A stretch of DNA of 41,269 bases from Gemmatimonadota bacterium (GTDB lineage Bacteria > Gemmatimonadota > Gemmatimonadetes > Longimicrobiales > Gaopeijiaceae), in NCBI GenBank assembly GCA_028874995.1, contig JAPPGM010000169.1, positions 6,566 to 47,834 of the forward strand, written 5' to 3'. Numbering within the stretch: the first letter of the stretch is position 1; every line of letters starts with the position of its first letter. Positions 2,691 through 39,722 of this stretch are shown here, piece after piece. Position numbers and translations under genes: made by a program. The notes beneath the pieces were generated by a model. The model searched no databases and was not told the DNA's origin. It saw only the letters and a program-made list of their open reading frames with translations.

Positions 2691-3884
2691 CTATCGCCTC
2701 ACCATCTCATACACCACGACGCTCTCCAAATCCATCTCGTCCCTCGACACCCCAAGCAGCAGCCCTCCGGCCACATCGAGAATCCGGAACCTGGCCGGAG
2801 CCTCAACCCCTCCCAGCCACTCCCCCTCCGATGAAATGACGGTGTACGGCGACCCCTCTTCCGGGTAGGCCAGCCGGTAGGAGGGCAGCCACACGTTTCC
2901 GTCGGCGTCGGCGAACGGGGCACCGAAGAGCGGCAGCGGCCGGCCGATCATGGCTCGATACCAGGACATGTCTTCCTGAACGATCTCCTCGAGCCGGGCA
3001 TCGGATACTTCGAAGTTCATCCGGCCCATCATTCGCTCATAGGCCTCGACGGGCTCCAGGTGTTCCTCGGTCAGCAGAGTGGGCTCGGCCCGCCACCGCA
3101 CGATCCGGGTTACGGTGCCGTCCGGCAGACGCCAGGTGATCTCAGGCCTGTCGGACCTCGTGTAGACGAATCGCCCGGAAGCGGCCGTGACCCAGCCAAG
3201 GGCCCTGATCGGGTTCATCAGCCCCGGCAAGCCCCGCGGCCAGTGGTCGTACGACGCGACCGTGTCGAGGGTGCCGGTTTCAGTATCGAACAACGACATG
3301 TGTCCGGCGAGCCACTCCTCCTCGATATCGACCCAGGAACGGTAGGGCACCCGGTCAAACAGCAGCAGCTCGCCGGATGGACCGATTCCCGCCACGCCGA
3401 GGTGGCCTACCCGAGGGAGCCTGGCAATGCGCGCGACCGAGTCGCCGACGAAGAGCGTGACGCGAGACTGACGACGGTCAGGCACAAGAACGCTGTCCTA
3501 CCCCAGGACGAACATGGAGTACGGGTAGATGACGTCGCCCGGCCCCTCTCCACGCCTGGCGAGCACCTCGTGTGCCGCGCCGTCCAGAGTCAGGACGACC
3601 AGTTCGCTGTTCTCCCGATCGGCAACGACCGCGCTCCCGTCCGGGAAGAGCCGGCCGACGCTGATGGACTGGAATTCGTAGTCGCCCGGGTTGGTTCCGT
3701 GGCGGTACAACGGCTCCTCCGCGATGGCGAAGGGCGGCTCGACCTCGGGCACGCCCGCGTACGCAACGATCTGGACGCCGGCGCTGTCCTCGATCTGGAT
3801 GGGGATGTCGGTGGGGGAAGGGGAGCGGTCCGCGCAGGCGGCGAGGCTGGACGTGGTGACAGCGAGGGTCACGCTTCTGGTCAT
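2691..3884 (-). pseudogene. 6-bladed beta-propeller lipoprotein interrupted by one in-frame amber codon
   Basis: One frame runs from ATG at 3884 to the stop at 2691 with a single interruption, TAG at 3500-3498. The first part (128 residues) has a signal ending in S-L-A-A-C, a lipobox, and the propeller motif R-R-G-E-G-P-G-D. The second part (from 3497) continues the fold without any shift of frame and ends V-V-Y-E-M-V-R-R, like the ends of the other propellers here. The sequence around the stop, F-V-L-G-(stop)-D-S-V-L-V, suggests a CAG to TAG change (Gln to amber). It may be a true nonsense mutation, a readthrough site or a base-call error. Full length would be 397 residues, the usual size of this family. 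Confidence 0.8.
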
Positions 3885-27743: not shown

Positions 27744-28885
27744 CGACGGTTCCTTCGAGGTGGGATGGGGGGATCCTCGAAGCGGAGCGTGTCCCATCGT
27801 GCCGGCGGCGTCCCTGTGGCCGGCGGGGCCACCGCGATGGGCGGTGGAGGTGTGTACGGCGACATGTCCAGGTCTTCGCCGTCGAAGTAGGCCAGCCGGT
27901 TCGGAGTCGTCCTCGTCATGAGCCAGCGAACCTGGGCGTTCAGCCGCTCTGGCCGGTACCGAACCGCGAAGTACGGAAGAATGGTCTCCGCAACATCCTC
28001 CCGGTCGGGAAAGTCGTGCGCGTAGTCGGAGATGGCCACGCCGTCGGCCTGCTGGGCCGCGCGCCAGCCGGGCGAGTCCGAATGGTCGGGATCGAGCGAG
28101 GCGTGGGCGCCTTCGTGCATGAACACCTCTTCCAGGAACCCGTCGTTGACGGCCCGCCTCGTTCCCGGGTCCTCCGTATGGATCAGGATGCTCCCGTTGT
28201 AGGAATTGCCCCCGAAGGCCCCCTGGCCCGCATTCACCTCCACCTCCTGGAGGTTCGACAGGAGAGCCGCCGGGAGCCGTCCCATCGCTGGTCCGAAGAC
28301 CTCGATCTCCGCCTCGGCCGCCTCCGCGCTGCCGAACTCGGGATTGAACTGCCACTCCACAGTACGTTCGCCGAACCGCACGTCGAAGAGGTAGGCATTC
28401 ACCGTGATCCAGGCGTTGGCCCGCCTGTCGAAGATCTCCCTCCAACCGCGACCGGTGTAGGTGACGCTGCCGAACGACGAGGGGTCGTCAGGACCGAGTA
28501 TCTCCGGGGTCACCCATACCGTTCCGCTGAACGGCGGCTCTCCGGTGTGCGCGAGCCCGATATCGACCGTCTGGTCGGCGCGAACATCCACTTCAACGGT
28601 CTCTCGCCGGTAGCTGGGCGGGGCGCTGACGGTAATCCTGACCTTGCCCCCGGGGACGCCCGACAGCAGGTACCGCCCGATTGAATCGGTGTTCGTGGAT
28701 GCCGACGCTCCCTCTTCCAGCCGCACGGCCGCGCCGGGAATCGCCAGGCCCGGCATCCGGCTGTCGGTCACCGTGCCGGACAGCGTGAACGACCCCACCA
28801 CCGTCGGCCCGGTCTCCCCGCAGGAAACCGAGACCAGGCCGGTCAATGCCACCGACACGGCGATTGTGATTGGGCGACGCGTCAT
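27740..28885 (-). CDS. lipoprotein with carboxypeptidase-regulatory-like domain and metallopeptidase-like motif
   Basis: The 381-residue protein starts M-T-R-R-P-I-T and has a lipobox (L-V-S-V-S-C-G). Residues about 30-110 look like a carboxypeptidase-regulatory-like beta domain (F-T-L-S-G-T-V-T-D, S-I-G-R-Y-L-L-S-G-V-P-G-G). The second half carries F-M-H-E-G-A-H-A-S-L-D (H-E-x-x-H) near residue 260, followed by D-P-D-H-S-D-S-P-G-W, plausible further zinc ligands. No exact peptidase family is assigned. The Pro-rich C-terminus ends at the ATGA overlap with the membrane-protein gene. Confidence 0.68.
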   Translation of the reverse strand: MTRRPITIAVSVALTGLVSVSCGETGPTVVGSFTLSGTVTDSRMPGLAIPGAAVRLEEGASASTNTDSIGRYLLSGVPGGKVRITVSAPPSYRRETVEVDVRADQTVDIGLAHTGEPPFSGTVWVTPEILGPDDPSSFGSVTYTGRGWREIFDRRANAWITVNAYLFDVRFGERTVEWQFNPEFGSAEAAEAEIEVFGPAMGRLPAALLSNLQEVEVNAGQGAFGGNSYNGSILIHTEDPGTRRAVNDGFLEEVFMHEGAHASLDPDHSDSPGWRAAQQADGVAISDYAHDFPDREDVAETILPYFAVRYRPERLNAQVRWLMTRTTPNRLAYFDGEDLDMSPYTPPPPIAVAPPATGTPPARWDTLRFEDPPIPPRRNRR

Positions 28886-29012
28886 TCTCGTACACTCCGT
28901 CGGACACACTCGAACCGTTGCGCTCCACTCGACGAAAACCTACGGAAGCGGGCCGGTGGACGCACGGACGCGCCTTCCACCAGCCCCGCTGCCAGCACTA
29001 ACTTCCCCCACC

Positions 29013-30605
29013 ATGCCAACCCACTGGGCCATCGATCTCGGGACCTCCAACACGACCGTCTGCGAAGACCGGTCCGGGCAGCCGCACGTCGTCAACCTCC
29101 CCGACCAGGCGAAGCTGGAGCCCATCACGCAGACCCCGGTCATGCCGTCGTGCGTCTGCGTCATGGACCCGGACGGCGAAAAGGTCCTGATCGGGCAGGA
29201 GGCCGTCACTTACAACTGGGACGGACGGGCCACGGGCTTCGCACGCGGCTTCAAGCGCCACCTCGGCATGGAGAGCAGCCGGGCCATGGCGCGCGTGGGC
29301 GGAAGGACCTTCACCGCGCAGGACGTCGCGTCTCTCTTCCTGCGCGAGATCGTCGACACCCTCGAGGCACGATTCGGCGAGGAGGTAGCCGACGTCACCA
29401 TCGCGACGCCGAGCGGCTTCTACGAGACGTACCGGGCCGAACTCCAGGAGATCATCCGCCGTGTGAAGCGGCGCGGCTGGTGGGGACGCATCTGGGCGCG
29501 CCTTCGGGGGAAGCCGGGCGGGATCGTGTTCCGCACCCTGGACGAGCCCGTGGCGGCGGCGCTCGGCTACGGGGTCGATGTCGGACGCCCCACGACGGTG
29601 ATCGCCTTCGATTTCGGCGGTGGATCGATGGAAGCGGCGGTGGTGAGGACCCACGGCGCACGGACGGTCGAGACCGGCAGGGCGGAGGTGCTCGCCAAGC
29701 AGGCCGTCGAACTCGGCGGCGACGACATCGACCGCTGGATTCTGGAGCGGCTGGTCCCGTCGGCGCTGCACGACTGGCCCGAATGGGAGGTCGCGCTCCG
29801 CTGGGAGGCCGAGCGCGTCAAGCTGCTCGCGAGCGCGGGAAGCGAGGGCGACTTCACCTTCCGCAACGAATCGTATGGGAGGCTGGACTACCACGTCCTG
29901 CGCGACCTGCTCGCCGAAAACGGCCTCTACGCGCGCATCCGGGAGCTCCTGGACGACACGCTCACCGAGCTGCGGACCCGGCACGGCGTTCTCCCCGGCG
30001 CGATCGACGATGTCATCCTCGAAGGCGGTTCCACCCTGCTTCCCGAGGTGCGCAACGTCGTGGGCGACGTGCTCGGCCGCGACAAGGTGCGGGAGTGGCT
30101 GCCCTTCGCGGCCGTCGCGCGCGGCGCTTGCATCTTCGCCGGTGGCGCGCACGTCGAGGACTTCATCTACCACGACTACGCGATCCGGCTCCTTCCCGAG
30201 GACGACAAGGGGGCCGAGTACGAACTCCTCATCCCAGGCGGGACGCGCTTCCCCACGGTCGACGACTTCGTAACGCGCTACTACGCCCCCGGCTTCGACG
30301 GCCAGCGCCACATCAACCTCTTCATCTGCGAGGTCGGGCGCGTGGCCGGGCGTCCGGTGGACTGGACCGAGCGGCCGAACGGCTCCAGCTACTTCGTGCC
30401 CGGGACCGAGGGCGAACAGGCGTTCTGCCTGTGCCTCAACGAGGCGGACCCGGCGCTGCCGCTCAGTCCGGCCGGCAGCGGAGCCGCGCCCCGCCTGCGC
30501 GTGACCTATTCGGTTGATGAAAACCGCTGGCTGTGCGTAACGGTACATGACCTGCAGCGAAAGACCGACCTGAAGGTGAAACACCCGGTGGTAAGACTGC
30601 GATGA
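29013..30605 (+). CDS. Hsp70 family (DnaK-like) ATPase
   Basis: The 530-residue protein begins M-P-T-H-W-A-I-D-L-G-T-S-N-T, the phosphate-1 motif of the actin/Hsp70 fold. Other motifs are A-T-P-S-G-F-Y-E-T near 130, D-E-P-V-A-A-A-L-G-Y near 180, phosphate-2 D-F-G-G-G-S-M-E near 200, and the adenosine motif L-E-G-G-S-T-L-L-P near 337. After about residue 380 the standard substrate-binding domain is replaced by a shorter beta-rich region, so it is a divergent Hsp70 and not the housekeeping DnaK. There is no clear ribosome site before the ATG. It overlaps the HEAT-type gene by ATGA (30602-30605), implying a joint function. Confidence 0.88.
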   Translation: MPTHWAIDLGTSNTTVCEDRSGQPHVVNLPDQAKLEPITQTPVMPSCVCVMDPDGEKVLIGQEAVTYNWDGRATGFARGFKRHLGMESSRAMARVGGRTFTAQDVASLFLREIVDTLEARFGEEVADVTIATPSGFYETYRAELQEIIRRVKRRGWWGRIWARLRGKPGGIVFRTLDEPVAAALGYGVDVGRPTTVIAFDFGGGSMEAAVVRTHGARTVETGRAEVLAKQAVELGGDDIDRWILERLVPSALHDWPEWEVALRWEAERVKLLASAGSEGDFTFRNESYGRLDYHVLRDLLAENGLYARIRELLDDTLTELRTRHGVLPGAIDDVILEGGSTLLPEVRNVVGDVLGRDKVREWLPFAAVARGACIFAGGAHVEDFIYHDYAIRLLPEDDKGAEYELLIPGGTRFPTVDDFVTRYYAPGFDGQRHINLFICEVGRVAGRPVDWTERPNGSSYFVPGTEGEQAFCLCLNEADPALPLSPAGSGAAPRLRVTYSVDENRWLCVTVHDLQRKTDLKVKHPVVRLR

Positions 30606-31897
30606 GCGAGCTCAAATCCCTCTTCGGCCCTAGCCAGGAGAAGATCTGGCGGCGACTGTCCCGCGAAGTGGGCGGGCAGTTCCGCGAAGGAGGGATCTTT
30701 GCATCACACGCCGTCCAGGTTCGTGCCGAAGACTGGCTCATCACACTCGACACGTACGCGTTCAGCGACAGCGCAGGAGGCGGCACCTTCACGAGGCTCC
30801 GCGCCCCCTATTTCAATCCGGAGCGCTTCAGGTTCGAGATCTACCGTGCGAGCTTCTTCACCGAGTTGTGGAAGGGGATGGGGATGCAGGATATCGAGGT
30901 CGGCCATCCCCGGTTTGATCGTGACTTCGTGATCAAGGGCAATTCTCCTGGGCGGATACGGCGGCTCTTCGACAACGGGAAGATCCGCCGCCTCATCGAT
31001 GCCCAGCCGAAGATTCATCTGTCCGTCAAGGCGCACGAAGGGGTCTTCAGCAAGTTTCCCGCCGGGGTGGACGAACTTCACTCCGAGTCGGCCGGGACCA
31101 TCAAGGATCTGTCGCAGCTGCGCATGCTGTTCGACCTCTTTGCCGAGGTGCTGCAGCAGGTTTGCCACGAGGGGAAGGCGTACGAGGACGATGTCCGGAT
31201 CCACATGCGGCGGCTGCGTGCGCCCGGGGGGCAGATCAGGGACAAGTATGTCATCTGGGAGGGGGACAAGCCGCGACGCGACGCGGCTGCGGCGCTCGGA
31301 CGGCTGGGCGACCCCGCGGCCGGCCCCGCGCTCACCTCTGTTCTCACGGACAAGGACAACCTGCTCGTCGCGCGGGCGATCGAGGCACTCGCCCGGATCG
31401 GTGACGCGCGGGCGGTCGGCCCCCTCGTCCGCAGGCTCGGCGACACCAAGGCGGCCGAGGGCCGTCCCATCCGCGATCACGTTGCCGATGCATTGAGGGA
31501 ACTCGGTGAAGGGGCGCTCGTCGATGCCGTGCTGGCCGCGCTGGACGGCGACTTCGCGCGTCTCAAGGCGTACGACGGCGCATTCAGGGCGGAGATCATC
31601 GATGCGCTGGCCAATTCGATTCGCTGGCGCTCCGCCACGCACCCGGCGAACGCGCTGGCCGAAATCCACGCTGTGGAGGCGCTGCCGCGGCTCCGCGCAA
31701 TCCTGACCAACTACGGCAGGCGAAACCCCACCGGCCAGACGGTTGCAGACGTGATCAGGAGGCTCGAGTCACGCGCTTCGCTTCCCCGCGCCGCCACGGC
31801 GCCCGATGTCGAAGCTGACACGCTGCCACGTGCTGCGCGGGAGCCGGGGCCGGACACGCGGACGCTGCCGCGCGGCTCCCGGGGTCCGGAAGAATAG
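30602..31897 (+). CDS. HEAT-repeat protein coupled to the Hsp70 gene
   Basis: The 431-residue protein has an uncharacterised N-terminal domain (residues about 1-215: L-F-G-P-S-Q-E-K-I-W-R-R-L, then F-R-F-E-I-Y-R-A-S-F-F-T-E-L-W). HEAT/PBS-lyase-type repeats follow (D-A-A-A-A-L-G-R-L-G-D-P-A-A-G-P-A-L, A-I-E-A-L-A-R-I-G-D-A-R-A-V-G-P-L) to about residue 300. The last about 40 residues hold three short L-P-R-[AG]-[AS] repeats spaced 16-22 residues apart. No catalytic motif is visible; it may be a scaffold or client-binding partner of the Hsp70. It starts within the Hsp70 stop codon (ATGA). Confidence 0.75.
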   Translation: MSELKSLFGPSQEKIWRRLSREVGGQFREGGIFASHAVQVRAEDWLITLDTYAFSDSAGGGTFTRLRAPYFNPERFRFEIYRASFFTELWKGMGMQDIEVGHPRFDRDFVIKGNSPGRIRRLFDNGKIRRLIDAQPKIHLSVKAHEGVFSKFPAGVDELHSESAGTIKDLSQLRMLFDLFAEVLQQVCHEGKAYEDDVRIHMRRLRAPGGQIRDKYVIWEGDKPRRDAAAALGRLGDPAAGPALTSVLTDKDNLLVARAIEALARIGDARAVGPLVRRLGDTKAAEGRPIRDHVADALRELGEGALVDAVLAALDGDFARLKAYDGAFRAEIIDALANSIRWRSATHPANALAEIHAVEALPRLRAILTNYGRRNPTGQTVADVIRRLESRASLPRAATAPDVEADTLPRAAREPGPDTRTLPRGSRGPEE

Positions 31898-33543: not shown

Positions 33544-34008
33544 CTATTGGCTCCCGGCGTCCCAGCCGGCCGGCTCCCCCCCGGCGACCTCTGCCACGTG
33601 AACCACCCGGTCGGCAAGATAGGGATGCCTGCGCACCTTGTCGTGGAAGCGAGTGTCCGCCGTGATGACGGGATAGCCCTCGTGAATGGCCAGTGCCAGG
33701 TAGAAGCAGTCGTGGACGGGGTGCCCCAGATCTCTTGCGAGGCGTGCGCTGGAAGCGGCGAGCCGGCGCATCGAAAGAGGCGTGGCCACCGGAGCCTTGC
33801 GCAGCAGGTCCACCGCTTCGGCCAATTGCTCGGCGGCCATCTCACCATGCCGGTGCTTGGCGGCCAGAGCGCTTGTCGCCTCTGCAAAGAGCAGATCGGG
33901 CGCCAGAAGCGTGACACCCGAATCGAGCAGCGTTGCCGACTCCCCGGAGAGCGGTTCGGCGACGATCCACTTCACGGCCACGCTGGCATCCACCACATAC
34001 CCGGTCAC
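33544..34008 (-). CDS. PIN-domain toxin (VapC/FitB-like)
   Basis: The 154-residue protein begins M-T-G-Y-V-V-D-A-S-V-A-V-K-W, the first PIN acidic site, and has F-A-E-A-T (near 42), H-D-C-F-Y-L-A-L-A and T-A-D-T-R-F-H-D-K-V with the other acidic residues. It is a predicted RNase toxin. Its ATG overlaps the antitoxin stop (34005-34008). It is unrelated in detail to the two PIN toxins at 11 and 15 kb and represents a different subfamily. Confidence 0.88.
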   Translation of the reverse strand: MTGYVVDASVAVKWIVAEPLSGESATLLDSGVTLLAPDLLFAEATSALAAKHRHGEMAAEQLAEAVDLLRKAPVATPLSMRRLAASSARLARDLGHPVHDCFYLALAIHEGYPVITADTRFHDKVRRHPYLADRVVHVAEVAGGEPAGWDAGSQ

Positions 34009-34241
34009 TGGTGCGTGTCCCGGTCGCGGTCGGCGCGAATGGTGTCGGTGCTGTCGATCGAAGACGCGAGACGTTGGCGCATCGCCCGCGCCCGGTCGGC
34101 GAAGGAGCCCTCGGCCGGGAGCAGCGCCTTCTTCAGGATCTCGCGGTGCTCCGCTTCGGCGGACCTGCCGTTGGCCGCGGCGCGCCGCCGAAGGCCGTCG
34201 ACGATCTGACGGGAGAGCTTGCGAACAGTGAGTTGGGCCAT
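34005..34241 (-). CDS. ribbon-helix-helix antitoxin (FitA-like)
   Basis: The 78-residue protein begins M-A-Q-L-T-V-R-K-L-S-R-Q-I-V-D-G-L-R-R-R-A-A-A-N-G-R-S-A-E-A-E-H-R-E-I-L, a FitA/StbC-type DNA-binding antitoxin. The longer frame from 34403 reads through the promoter, so the start at 34241 is preferred although its ribosome site is weak. It would repress its own promoter and neutralise the PIN toxin downstream. Confidence 0.87.
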   Translation of the reverse strand: MAQLTVRKLSRQIVDGLRRRAAANGRSAEAEHREILKKALLPAEGSFADRARAMRQRLASSIDSTDTIRADRDRDTHQ

Positions 34242-34278
34242 TTTGTCTACTGTCGTTGAAGTGCCAGCAATGACACTT

Positions 34279-34307
34279 ATTGTATGATGTGATGGCAATG
34301 CTGTCAA
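34279..34307 (-). promoter_or_regulatory. promoter of the FitAB-type operon
   Basis: On the minus strand TTGACA (34307-34302) is followed after exactly 17 bp by TACAAT (34284-34279), a near-consensus promoter about 40 bp upstream of the antitoxin ATG. GCAATG recurs on both sides of it and may mark the operator. Confidence 0.7.
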
Positions 34308-34503
34308 TTCAGGATTGGCCCCGCGCTCCTGCCGGCTCCCGCCCAATACCTGAGAGCAAGGTCCCACCCCCGCGATTTGGCAAAGAGGCTGAAGGGCCGA
34401 CACTTCCTTCTCGAACCGCCGGGTACACTACCCGGCCTGTCACGACACTGGGGACCGGGTCTACTTTCCTGCGGCCCTTCACCACACCGAGGATCCAGTC
34501 ACC

Positions 34504-35517: not shown

Positions 35518-36057
35518 TCACCGGTCGTTCGAGAGATCCTGGTAGTAGCCGCCCACGATGACGAAGTCCCTGTCGGATACCGGCGAGTAGTACCGGATCG
35601 CGTAGCTGTCCTTGCAGAGAACGTCTTCCGGGTCGGCGGGATCGTCCCAGCACCATTCCACGAACCCGCCTCCCTCCTCGGCGCCGGTGGCCAGCATCTC
35701 CTGGACGACCAGGGTTCCCCGGTCGTCCTTCACGTTGCCGGCTCTCTTGCGGTCCATGTCCGGATCCTCGCCGTGGATGAACACCCGTCCCTCGGTGGTG
35801 AAGAGAATCACATAGACGTTGCCCACATTGTAGTCGCTGCCCTCCGTTCTGACTTCCTCCAGGACCCGGGTGCCCTCGTCCATGTCTTCGATCCGGCCGA
35901 AGACGGACTCGGCCCAGAGCACGAATCCCCTGAGCGTTTCCCTGTCGCGCACCTCGCCGGCGGTGACCTTCTCCACCTGGGCGTGAGCCGGGCGGGGGGA
36001 CGGGGCACTGAAGGCGAGAACGAACAGTGTCAGAATGATGGGGACGGATTTGACCAC
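35518..36057 (-). CDS. exported single-Cache-domain protein
   Basis: The 179-residue protein has a signal peptide (M-V-K-S-V-P, ending in P-A-H-A-Q) and one single-Cache-2-like sensor domain: Y-V-I-L-F-T-T-E-G-R-V-F-I-H-G-E-D-P and G-G-G-F-V-E-W-C-W-D-D-P. Such domains bind small ligands in the periplasm, usually as part of receptors; here there is no membrane anchor. It is nearly identical over its whole length to the first Cache domain of the protein at 37146-39722, including R-P-A-H-A-Q-V-E-K-V-T-A. It is probably a soluble ligand-binding protein. Confidence 0.8.
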   Translation of the reverse strand: MVKSVPIILTLFVLAFSAPSPRPAHAQVEKVTAGEVRDRETLRGFVLWAESVFGRIEDMDEGTRVLEEVRTEGSDYNVGNVYVILFTTEGRVFIHGEDPDMDRKRAGNVKDDRGTLVVQEMLATGAEEGGGFVEWCWDDPADPEDVLCKDSYAIRYYSPVSDRDFVIVGGYYQDLSNDR

Positions 36058-36258
36058 GGCGGGTTTTCGTGGGTTGGGGTGTCACACAAGGTCCAACACA
36101 AGGATACGTAGTGGCCGTCCCTCACGTCCATATCCAGAGGCCTGCGCGTGGCGCCGCCCCGGGACCGAAACTATCCTTTCACGATCTGCGTTACTTTGCC
36201 ACGTAACGCATCCGCGTGCACGCAATTCCCGAACCCCGCCTCGTCAAGGAACAGGATC
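36058..36258. promoter_or_regulatory. divergent intergenic region with perfect 8-bp inverted repeat
   Basis: TGCGTTAC (36187-36194) and GTAACGCA (36203-36210) form a perfect inverted repeat with an 8-bp loop, 49 bp before the lipoprotein ATG. It may be an operator for one or both of the divergent genes. No strong -35/-10 pair is evident. Confidence 0.45.
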
Positions 36259-37065
36259 ATGAACCGCCTCCCCGCCCTCGCCCTCGCCGCCCTGCTGATC
36301 ACGGCCTTCGCCCTGCCCGCCCCCTCGCCGCCCCAGCAGCTCGCCTACCGTCTCCCGTCTCCGCCCACCGCCACCTATCACGTTGTGGATACGACAAGGG
36401 TCACCATGACCATGCCGATGGGCCCCATGGAAGCGTCGGGCAATTCTTCCTTCACCTTCGCGGTGACATTCGCGGCCGAGCGTGATGGGGTCCGCGCTGC
36501 CGGGGAACTCACGGAGTTCGCGGCACAGGGGAACGAGCCGATGAGCGGCACGACCTCCATTAGCAGAGGCCAGGCGGGAGCCGGTGACTTCGACCTGCTG
36601 CTGGGACCGCAGGGGGTGGAGGAAGTGGTGGCCGGAGCGATCCGGGGAGCCGACAGCGATCTTCCCATGTGGTCGGATCCGACCGAAGGGATGTTCCCGC
36701 GCCTCCCTGCGGACGAAGTCCAACCGGGCGATACCTGGATGGATACCGTCACGCACGACGTTGCGGAAGGCACGAGAGTTGCCGTCTACACGTACACACT
36801 CGCCGACGAAACCGTCGTGGACGGCAGGCCCCGCCTCAGGGTCACGTTTTCCGCCGATGTCCGGCTCTTGTTCGAACCGGCTGGAGGAGCTGGGGACGAG
36901 CAGCTGACCGGCACGGAAACCGGCTTCTTCCTGTGGGACATCGGCAGAGGGCTCGCGGCTGTGGCGGAAGTCTCGCGGAGCTACGAGGGGAGTATCGACC
37001 TGGGGGGCGCGGGTCCCATGAGCATGAAGACCACCGCCGTGACCCGGGTCACGTTGGCGATGTAA
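36259..37065 (+). CDS. uncharacterised exported protein, paralogue of 23393-24358
   Basis: The 268-residue protein starts M-N-R-L-P-A-L-A-L with a signal peptide ending near A-P-S-P-P-Q. It shares with the lipoprotein at 23393 the phrases L-P-S-P-P-T-A-T-Y, P-G-D-T-W-M-D-T-V-T, V-Y-T-Y-T and L-W-D-I-G-R-G-L-A-A-V, in the same order, so the two are paralogues of one beta-rich family. It lacks a lipobox cysteine. I know no function. The ATG at 36259 is preferred to one at 36148, whose extra residues do not look like a signal. Confidence 0.68.
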   Translation: MNRLPALALAALLITAFALPAPSPPQQLAYRLPSPPTATYHVVDTTRVTMTMPMGPMEASGNSSFTFAVTFAAERDGVRAAGELTEFAAQGNEPMSGTTSISRGQAGAGDFDLLLGPQGVEEVVAGAIRGADSDLPMWSDPTEGMFPRLPADEVQPGDTWMDTVTHDVAEGTRVAVYTYTLADETVVDGRPRLRVTFSADVRLLFEPAGGAGDEQLTGTETGFFLWDIGRGLAAVAEVSRSYEGSIDLGGAGPMSMKTTAVTRVTLAM

Positions 37066-37098
37066 ACCGCAGTTGACGTTTTGTAAATCGCAGTTGTC
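37061..37098. repeat. two 17-bp direct repeats related to the shared promoter motif
   Basis: TGTAAACCGCAGTTGAC (37061-37077) and TGTAAATCGCAGTTGTC (37082-37098) are repeated with a 21-bp period. Read on the minus strand they contain G-T-C-A-A-C and G-T-T-T-A-C-A, the elements of the P1-P4 promoters, but at a different spacing. They lie between convergent genes, overlapping the stop of the upstream gene. Confidence 0.6.
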
Positions 37099-37145
37099 AG
37101 TACGGATCCCGGACTGCTCGCGAGTCGGTCTGCCGGACGGGCGTA

Positions 37146-39722
37146 CTACCAGCGCATGGATAGGTTCACCGTCGCACGATAGGCCCCATCCCGGCCGTGG
37201 GGGCCGGTGCTGCGCCCGGCCTCGATGCCCGCCACGACGCCGCGACCGAGCTGCAGGCGGCTGCCCAGCTGATAGCCGTAAACCCCGTGGCTGGCCAGCG
37301 CGACCGGTGCCGGCCGAGCCGGGTTTGCGATTCCGCCCGCCCCGAACCAGGCAGCGTCCAGCGGCTCCGACATCAGGAATCTCGCGTAGGGCGTGAAGAT
37401 GCCCCGGCCCGCCGGCGTTTCGATCCCGTACCCGATTTCCGCGTCCAATCCCCGGCGGCCGGGTCCGTAACCGTCGCGGCCGGGCGTCATCGCGGTTGCG
37501 CCCAGAGCCCACAGACGCGCCGCGCTGGTCGCCGTCGATCCCCAGGACGGCCTCACACCGAAGGACAGGCCGCGTCCGCCGCCCCCGGGGTTCAGGGTGA
37601 GGGATCCGCCGAGGCCCCACTCGTCGTAGCCGTCCTGCTCATGCACCATCAGCCTGCGACCGTGCATGCGGAGCGTCAGGCCGCGACCGGGATTGATGAC
37701 GGTCACCCCGCCGCCGACTTCCATGCCGATTCCGGTATCGATGTCACCGTCGCCGCCGTCATAGCGCATGGCCACGCGCAGCTGCGGCCGCATGGTGGAC
37801 GAGCCCATCGCCATTCCCGCCGACCCCTCGAGCATCACACGGACGCGGCTCGCATCGGTGTTCAGCTCCCTGCGTCCCTCGACCTCTTCCGATGTCATCC
37901 TCGCCATGAACGCGTCCGACCGAATCGCGAGTTCGAAGCCGCCGGCGTCCTCCGAGTGCAGAATCTCGGCCTTGAGCCCCAATCCGCCCATTCGCATCGA
38001 GATGGGGCTCTCGGGGTCCTTCTCTCCGCCTCCCTCGATGTTCAGGTTCCCGGACCCGTACCCGAGCACGCCCCAGGTGAAGAGCCGGTCACCGATTGCG
38101 AGGCGGGCGTAGGGGAATCCGCTGGTTAGAGTGGTTGTGATGTCACCGAAGTCGTCATCGCCCGGTCGGCCGAGTTCGAATCGGCCCGATCCGCGGCTGT
38201 GGGTCATTGCAAGTCCGGCGATCACCGATCCCAACGCGTAGTCGGCGCCGAGGGCCGCGGTCATGACCTCGCCATTGCCGAACCCCTCTCCCTTTTCGTT
38301 GGAGAATCGCATGATCTCCCCTCCACCCCAGAGCGAGTAGCCGGCCCCGCCTCCGGAGGCGCCGGGTGAGAGCTGGAAGGAGGTGCCGTCGACGAGCGCG
38401 TTGGCGGAATGCGGCAGCAGACCCGGCGGCGAGGGCCGCGCGCCGTTCCCGTGGCGGGCCGCCGCGCCGGCACGCGCGAGCAGGGAACCGAGGTAGGACA
38501 GGGCCTGGTCGTCGTAGGGATCGGTCACGCCGCGCAGGGCGCCGAAGTCGAGCGACTGCCCCCCGACCTCGACATGGTCCTCGGCGTAGTAGGGATGTGA
38601 GACCCGGTTGCCGATCATCTCCATCGCCTGGCTCGCCACTGACCGGCTGAACCGGTGGAGCCAGTCTTCGGCGGCCTGTTCCGCCTCCGCCGTCGAGAAA
38701 TTGCGGTAGAATCCCGCGCCGATGATGAATTCCTGCCCGGGGTAGAAATCGTAGTTGCTCGTGAACGAGAGCGCGTAACTCACCTTGGGCGATCCGATGT
38801 CCTCGTCGCCCTCCACCGTGGGATCATCCCAGAAATACTCGACGAATCCTCCCCCGGCCTGGGCCGCCGCGATGATCAGTTCGACGAACCTCGTTCCGTT
38901 GACGTCGACGAAATCCTCGGCGTAGCGGCCTTCCCGCCAGGGGTTGGCGCCGTGGAAGAGCACGTACGCCTCCGGCGTGAAGATGAAGAGGTAGATGGGA
39001 CCGGCCTTGAAGTGGCCGCCTTCTTCCCTCAGCACGGCCTTCCACTCGTTCGCGCGGGCGAACCCCACGAGGTCGAGCAGTTCGACCAGCCAGTCGAGCG
39101 AGCCGTGCACGAACTGCCTGAGTGTCTCCCGGTCCACCACGTCGGCTGCCCCGATCTGGGGCAGCGGAATCTCGGGGAGCGGCTCGCCGGCGTGCGTCAG
39201 ATCCTGGTAGTAGCCGCCCACGAGGACGAAGTTCACGTTCGCCACCGGGGAGAAATACTCGATAGCGTAGCTGTCCTTGCAGAAGACGTCCTCCGCGTCG
39301 GCAGGATCGTCCCAGCACCACTCCACGAACCCGCCTCCATCCTGGGCGCCGGTGCTCAACATCTGCTGTACGACGTGGGTTCCCTGGTCATCCTGCACGT
39401 TGACCACCAGCTTGCCGTCGATGTTCGGATCCTCGCCGTGGATGAACACATGACCCTCGGTGGTGAAGAGGATCACGTACATGTTCCCCGAGTTGTAGTC
39501 GCTGCCCTCGGTTCTGACCTCCTCCAGAAGCTGGGCGCCTTCGTTGATGTCGTCGATCTGGCTCATGACCGACTCGGCCCACAGGATGGATTTCCTGAGT
39601 GTCTCCTTGTCCACCACTTCGGCGGCGGTGACCTTCTCCACCTGGGCGTGAGCCGGGCGTGGGGGCGTGGTGGTGAGGGCGAAGATGAGCAACGTCAGAA
39701 AAGCAGGGGCAATTCTGAACAT
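37146..39722 (-). CDS. two Cache domains fused to an autotransporter-like outer-membrane barrel
   Basis: The 858-residue protein starts M-F-R-I-A-P with AGGAGA upstream and a signal peptide ending in P-A-H-A-Q. Residues about 25-180 form one single-Cache-type domain (F-T-T-E-G-H-V-F-I-H-G-E-D-P, G-G-G-F-V-E-W-C-W), and about 185-345 a second (Y-V-L-F-H-G-A-N-P, G-G-G-F-V-E-Y-F-W). A linker follows, then from about 465 to the end alternating amphipathic strands (Y-A-R-L-A-I-G-D-R-L-F-T-W-G, M-R-M-G-G-L-G-L-K-A-E-I) ending in N-L-S-M-R-W, a C-terminal aromatic typical of outer-membrane proteins. Cache domains normally sit on inner-membrane receptors, so this would display them at the outer membrane. 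Confidence 0.8.
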   Translation of the reverse strand: MFRIAPAFLTLLIFALTTTPPRPAHAQVEKVTAAEVVDKETLRKSILWAESVMSQIDDINEGAQLLEEVRTEGSDYNSGNMYVILFTTEGHVFIHGEDPNIDGKLVVNVQDDQGTHVVQQMLSTGAQDGGGFVEWCWDDPADAEDVFCKDSYAIEYFSPVANVNFVLVGGYYQDLTHAGEPLPEIPLPQIGAADVVDRETLRQFVHGSLDWLVELLDLVGFARANEWKAVLREEGGHFKAGPIYLFIFTPEAYVLFHGANPWREGRYAEDFVDVNGTRFVELIIAAAQAGGGFVEYFWDDPTVEGDEDIGSPKVSYALSFTSNYDFYPGQEFIIGAGFYRNFSTAEAEQAAEDWLHRFSRSVASQAMEMIGNRVSHPYYAEDHVEVGGQSLDFGALRGVTDPYDDQALSYLGSLLARAGAAARHGNGARPSPPGLLPHSANALVDGTSFQLSPGASGGGAGYSLWGGGEIMRFSNEKGEGFGNGEVMTAALGADYALGSVIAGLAMTHSRGSGRFELGRPGDDDFGDITTTLTSGFPYARLAIGDRLFTWGVLGYGSGNLNIEGGGEKDPESPISMRMGGLGLKAEILHSEDAGGFELAIRSDAFMARMTSEEVEGRRELNTDASRVRVMLEGSAGMAMGSSTMRPQLRVAMRYDGGDGDIDTGIGMEVGGGVTVINPGRGLTLRMHGRRLMVHEQDGYDEWGLGGSLTLNPGGGGRGLSFGVRPSWGSTATSAARLWALGATAMTPGRDGYGPGRRGLDAEIGYGIETPAGRGIFTPYARFLMSEPLDAAWFGAGGIANPARPAPVALASHGVYGYQLGSRLQLGRGVVAGIEAGRSTGPHGRDGAYRATVNLSMRW

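Follow-up and report, generated by a model that had tools for sequence, protein, structure and literature searches.

The window analysed here, a stretch of 41,269 nucleotides from the 4.5-Mb genome (97% complete) of a Gemmatimonadota bacterium associated with sponges, contains one intact ORF on the minus strand at positions 37146..39722, which starts with ATG at 39722 and encodes, with no interruption, a protein of 858 residues. In this protein a signal peptide is followed by two sCache_2 domains, a helix and a C-terminal beta barrel. The signal peptide region (residues 1-27, 39642..39722, minus strand) has no lipobox and a modelled helix at residues 5-17, and judging from its sequence it is probably cleaved between AHA and Q. 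Cache1 (residues 28-177, 39192..39641) and Cache2 (residues 187-342, 38697..39164) are followed by the alpha helix (residues 344-374, 38601..38693) and the outer-membrane barrel (residues 462-858, 37149..38339), all encoded on the same strand. The Pfam family sCache_2 (PF17200, cut-off 25) was found twice in the protein with 98.3 bits over two stretches, and the stretch in Cache1 covers residues 72-177. Some 43 nt ahead of the start codon a sigma-70-like match was found; such matches occur at a rate little above chance. A second gene on the minus strand, at 35518..36057, starts with GTG and encodes a stand-alone secreted Cache1 paralogue of 179 residues with one PF17200 match (46.6 bits, cut-off 25), and the gap of 1,088 bp between the two holds an opposite-strand gene (36148..37065, plus strand) for a predicted secreted protein of 305 residues. 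Both the tandem Cache domains ahead of a barrel, which is of autotransporter type by its fold, and the nearby stand-alone copy of the first domain had been proposed in an earlier note made from the sequence alone, and both were confirmed.

The fusion gene is under purifying selection. Against the nearest species (locus L037), the whole gene had a Ka/Ks of 0.145, with 0.05 in Cache1, 0.10 in Cache2 and 0.17 in the barrel, and the values for the gene parts ranged from 0.05 to 0.27 across comparisons. That the locus is an artefact of assembly or reading frame, or a fusion no longer alive, is hardly conceivable: its public relatives are MAGs, which would leave room for such an error, but more than 20 genomes, at identities of 58-89%, and members of another phylum, at 30%, have the frame open without stops, and the low omega values of the gene parts also speak against it. 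The earlier note had named a frame error joining two genes as what would overturn it, and this was ruled out by the comparative data, the same full-length ORF being found in 22 of the 298 Gemmatimonadota genomes that were sampled, and in alphaproteobacterial MAGs. The 22 genomes all belong to three genera, and only one of their fusion genes has a stop, at or near the gene end. Within the genus, the full-length frame without stops was present in 11 of 23 genomes at 64-89% identity (the genome of the window excluded), and also in two members of the class. Relatives were found in some 25 public MAG contigs, and the alphaproteobacterial MAGs encode the same architecture with both Cache domains at about 30% identity to the window protein; one genome from the alphaproteobacterial search (G331) carries several copies. 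The label "Gammaproteobacteria" of the MAG with locus L062 is doubtful, the locus being 99.8% identical to G033. One Gemmatimonadota MAG (G221, contig C21) has, in addition to the Gemmatimonadota type, a Cache-barrel gene of the Alphaproteobacteria type (L120, L120:4339-6588, minus strand), which reflects either lateral transfer or contamination. When the neighbours of 34 loci were compared, no conserved operon or partner kinase common to the subclades was found; a sodium:dicarboxylate symporter (L039) or CstA (L045) lies nearby in some subclades and is not kept between them.

The AlphaFold2 model of the fusion protein (alignment of 27 rows, mean pLDDT 68.5) showed two confident Cache domains (pLDDT about 90), a confident helix at 344-374 (about 89), a disordered region at 379-460 and a barrel. 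The best PDB folds for residues 337-714 in Foldseek and VIA-align were autotransporter translocators with a pore helix, with VIA Z scores of 28.8 for Hbp, 28.3 for NalP, 27.4 for EspP, 26.7 for AIDA-I and 25.4 for EstA, whereas other barrel families stayed below 20. The alignments to Hbp, NalP and EspP start at residues 337-346, with helix 344-374 on the pore helix of the translocators, and the superposition on NalP gave an rmsd of 2.3 over 262 residues (model 346-712), on a model of middling confidence. The barrel folded alone gave the same autotransporter matches. The earlier note would have been overturned by a model in which the C-terminal part is not a barrel, and this did not occur. The Pfam Autotransporter family (PF03797, cut-off 26) was found in the alphaproteobacterial relatives L066 (35.7) and L068 (38.5), and its cut-off was not reached by the window protein itself. 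The C-terminus reads VNLSMRW, like a beta-signal, and its last residue W858 is invariant, as expected of an outer-membrane beta-signal. Proteins of the Omp85 family, to which barrel assembly is assigned, are present in the genome.

The two AlphaFold2 models, of the full protein and of the barrel alone, left the strand number at 12 or 18: twelve strands were modelled at residues 462-710, and six more were predicted up to residue 856 (strands 13-18, residues 718-856) with pLDDT of about 25-65. From first strand to C-terminus the barrel family mostly spans 363-393 residues, exceeding a 12-strand autotransporter by about 100, and L120 encodes a natural form of 749 residues that lacks this stretch of about 110 residues before the last strand, keeps the last strand and would have 12 strands. 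The family may include a 12-strand and an 18-strand form. Because the barrel is about 100 residues longer and its last six strands have low pLDDT, it is uncertain whether the fusion protein has a plain type Va barrel. The linker of about 85 residues (379-460) between helix and first strand is also longer than in solved autotransporters. The same barrel, in several cases with the preceding helix motif of the WLSRFGRTVA.QVV type, recurs in giant FN3/Calx-beta-like proteins of the same genomes, and therefore the barrel appears as a modular anchor onto which the Cache pair was placed. The genome of the window (G000) encodes five further proteins with this barrel (L003-L007, on contigs C100, C159 and C162), three of them on C100, in open frames of up to about 2,100 residues.

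Cache2 matched the PDB entries 4EXO, 2QHK and 4K08 in phmmer, and its fold was closest to 2QHK (VIA Z 14.9), 4K08 (14.1), 4EXO (14.0) and 5G4Y (13.8). In 4EXO the pyruvate is contacted by Y96, F98, H109, F148, W150 and K161 (PMC12415202), and in PscD the ligand contacts are Tyr90, Trp92, His103, Tyr143, Trp145 and Lys156 (PMC5062169). In the phmmer alignment the 4EXO contacts fall on Y244, F246, H257, Y296, W298 and K313 of Cache2, which has the complete Y/W(F)/H/Y(F)/W/K contact set of the C2/C3-carboxylate-binding sCache_2 subgroup. Four of these residues, H257, Y296, W298 and K313, do not vary among the 27 aligned sequences, which come from two phyla; as about 23% of the Cache2 columns in this alignment are invariant, four of six contacts by chance would be unlikely but still possible. 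The position that separates pyruvate receptors (His) from lactate receptors (Leu) is His, which argues against lactate. The ligand of Cache2 may accordingly be sought, from its pocket residues, among small C2/C3 carboxylates of the pyruvate, acetate, glycolate or propionate class. The corresponding positions of Cache1 are Y82, I84, H95, W135, W137 and K149, with two of six altered (I for F and W for Y), and the stand-alone copy has the same Y/I/H/W/W/K pocket, so the contact set is incomplete in both. In alphaproteobacterial Cache1 the W and K positions of the pocket are lost. Since these contacts are kept in Cache2 and altered or lost in Cache1, Cache2 is probably the conserved ligand module. 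Cache1 has Cys136 and Cys148 near its pocket in all 22 Gemmatimonadota rows, absent from Alphaproteobacteria, and the stand-alone copy also has two cysteines 12 residues apart; a small disulphide next to the Cache1 pocket is probable. Elsewhere in Gemmatimonadota (G325, G221 and G251), a Cache2-like protein was observed that stands alone, carries a signal of lipoprotein type (LAAVGGC) and has N in place of the pocket His (L117:~3200-3726, L118 and L119).

The earlier note had described the stand-alone copy as nearly identical to Cache1 in signal peptide and domain, and as recent. Neither description holds. The BLASTP alignment to Cache1 gave 120 identities in 177 positions (68%; about 34% to Cache2), with 12 of 27 residues identical in the signal peptide and 108 of 150 (72%) in the mature domain, and Ks between the stand-alone and fused domains was 0.43-0.78. 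Only two of 98 near genomes have the gene, those of the window's species and of G018 (locus L037), where it lies upstream of the fusion gene and not downstream as in the window. The tree places both stand-alone copies in one clade, which also holds the Cache1 domains from this group of species. A unit of 1.5 kb with the 305-residue gene and the stand-alone gene (window 35534-37070, L037:434-1971) lies to one side of the fusion gene in the window and to the other side in the sister species, and has moved as a block. The 305-residue protein matched no Pfam family above cut-off and is probably not part of the function. The mature domain of the stand-alone protein is under purifying selection (omega 0.15 against the L037 orthologue). 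A recent duplication is rejected by the Ks values, the tree and the sister-species copy across the fusion gene, and the gene appears from these comparisons to be an older, apparently functional, lineage-specific duplicate. As a soluble form it might act as a scavenger or competitor, as the earlier note suggested; being confined to this lineage, it cannot be a partner that the fusion needs.

In four genomes the fusion gene is split at identical codons just after Cache2, between GAG-FYR and NFST (split-gene pairs L060/L063, at L060:5000 and L063:5984, L111/L112, L113/L114 and L115/L116), and the element flanks have the common 10-bp core GTTCTACCGG. The insert in Ca. Palauibacter rhopaloidicola (L060/L063) is 6,344 bp long and encodes a beta-propeller protein and an Mrr-type nuclease besides its tyrosine integrase and relaxase. 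In G033 the flanking sequences agree at 99.5-99.9% with L062/L122, where the site is uninterrupted (empty site L062:~5990). Among 21 integrase loci scanned, only L060 and L129 (G139) have the Cache gene at the element end. The element adds a few codons to the end of the split Cache part, which is still under purifying selection, so occupancy could convert the anchored protein to a secreted two-Cache protein. The freed barrel part showed no visible decay, which would fit a recent or reversible insertion.

Gemmatimonadota have a diderm envelope, in which outer-membrane barrels are assembled by the BAM machinery and type Va barrels export their passenger. We favour, at a probability of about 0.62, the reading that the fusion protein is an autotransporter displaying C2/C3-carboxylate-binding Cache modules on the outer membrane. 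The protein would be a monomeric, type Va-like autotransporter, exported via its signal peptide; BAM would insert the C-terminal barrel, helix 344-374 would end up within the barrel pore, and the passenger with both sCache_2 domains would be carried to the cell surface and remain tethered there. Cache2 would bind a small C2/C3 carboxylate, Cache1 has a related but altered pocket beside its probable disulphide, and the stand-alone copy would be a lineage-specific soluble version of Cache1. Against this reading, a disulphide in Cache1 could hinder translocation, and neither a neighbour nor an operon is conserved that would point to a pathway. The most likely function would be surface capture or sensing of short carboxylates derived from a host or from microbes. 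The earlier note had suggested surface display or coupled sensing at the outer membrane: with the autotransporter barrel, we infer display as the likeliest topology, while the coupling was left without a partner protein or a conserved operon.

The other readings differ in where the Cache pair sits and in what it does there. If the barrel were a mere outer-membrane anchor, the Cache domains would stay in the periplasm, bind carboxylates entering through porins and possibly hand them over to inner-membrane transporters. The characterised sCache_2 receptor domains compared here form the extracytoplasmic portion of receptors in the inner membrane, the stand-alone copy is a soluble protein, the relatives of Cache2 at L117-L119 are of lipoprotein type, and the symporter and CstA neighbours would suit such a role; but these transporters change between subclades, helix and barrel match translocators that export the preceding part, and relatives with the same barrel have repeat passengers typical of surface proteins, and we consider a periplasmic location unlikely. 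A surface adhesin, in which the Cache pair no longer binds a free metabolite but a carboxylated group of polymers from the host or from microbes, would fit the sponge-associated lineages from which several of the fusion-bearing genomes come (by record names such as Ca. Palauibacter rhopaloidicola and the Palauibacterales paper) and the likeness of sister proteins with the same barrel to repeat adhesins. It is quite improbable, since sCache_2 pockets enclose small free ligands (PMC5062169) and a polymer binder would not need the complete small-carboxylate pocket kept in Cache2. Cache2 runs almost directly into the modelled pore helix, as the Cache domain of chemoreceptors runs into the second transmembrane helix, and on this likeness there is a slim chance that the protein is an outer-membrane receptor in which ligand binding shifts the pore helix and thereby gates the pore or signals across the outer membrane.

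Among the extracellular sensors of prokaryotes, no superfamily is larger than that of the Cache domains (PMC4822843). The sCache_2 domains of the chemoreceptors and kinases PscD, McpP, Adeh_3718, Vibrio parahaemolyticus 4EXO, MctS and CtpM have the fold (Z 14-15) and the C2/C3-carboxylate contacts in common with Cache2, but they lie at the inner membrane and are followed by a transmembrane helix and, in the cytoplasm, a signalling domain, whereas in the fusion protein a pore helix and an outer-membrane barrel come after them, with nothing cytoplasmic. A profile search found no MCPsignal domain in the genome of the window, with matches in control genomes, and only three sCache_2 matches, two in the fusion protein and one in the stand-alone protein. 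Type Va autotransporters, with a globular passenger (EstA, AaaA) or of the classical kind (Hbp, EspP, NalP, AIDA-I), are like the fusion protein in the signal peptide, N-terminal passenger, pore-helix-aligned helix, C-terminal barrel and terminal aromatic residue; they differ in having an enzyme or beta helix as passenger and not tandem ligand-binding sensor domains, in a barrel region about 100 residues shorter, and in lacking the long flexible linker from helix to first strand. The giant FN3/Calx-beta-like proteins (L003-L006, L021-L034) have the same barrel family and, in several of them, the helix of that motif type, with repeat arrays as passengers instead of Cache domains. A full-text search of a literature collection returned no relevant paper on Cache domains with an autotransporter, and this build seems undescribed; in our judgement a secretion type already known has here a new passenger, whose predicted ligand can be tested. 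Domains studied as parts of inner-membrane receptors are found here on a probable autotransporter of the outer membrane that is conserved in two phyla, so that a sensor domain would have been put to a second use at the cell surface, in a genome without chemoreceptors.

Further genes of the window were assigned by reading the sequence. Positions 33544-34403 (minus strand) encode a PIN-domain toxin paired with a small ribbon-helix-helix-like antitoxin, and positions 28644-31897 (plus strand) a Hsp70/DnaK-like protein and, after it, a HEAT-repeat-like one; L037 has retained both of the latter.
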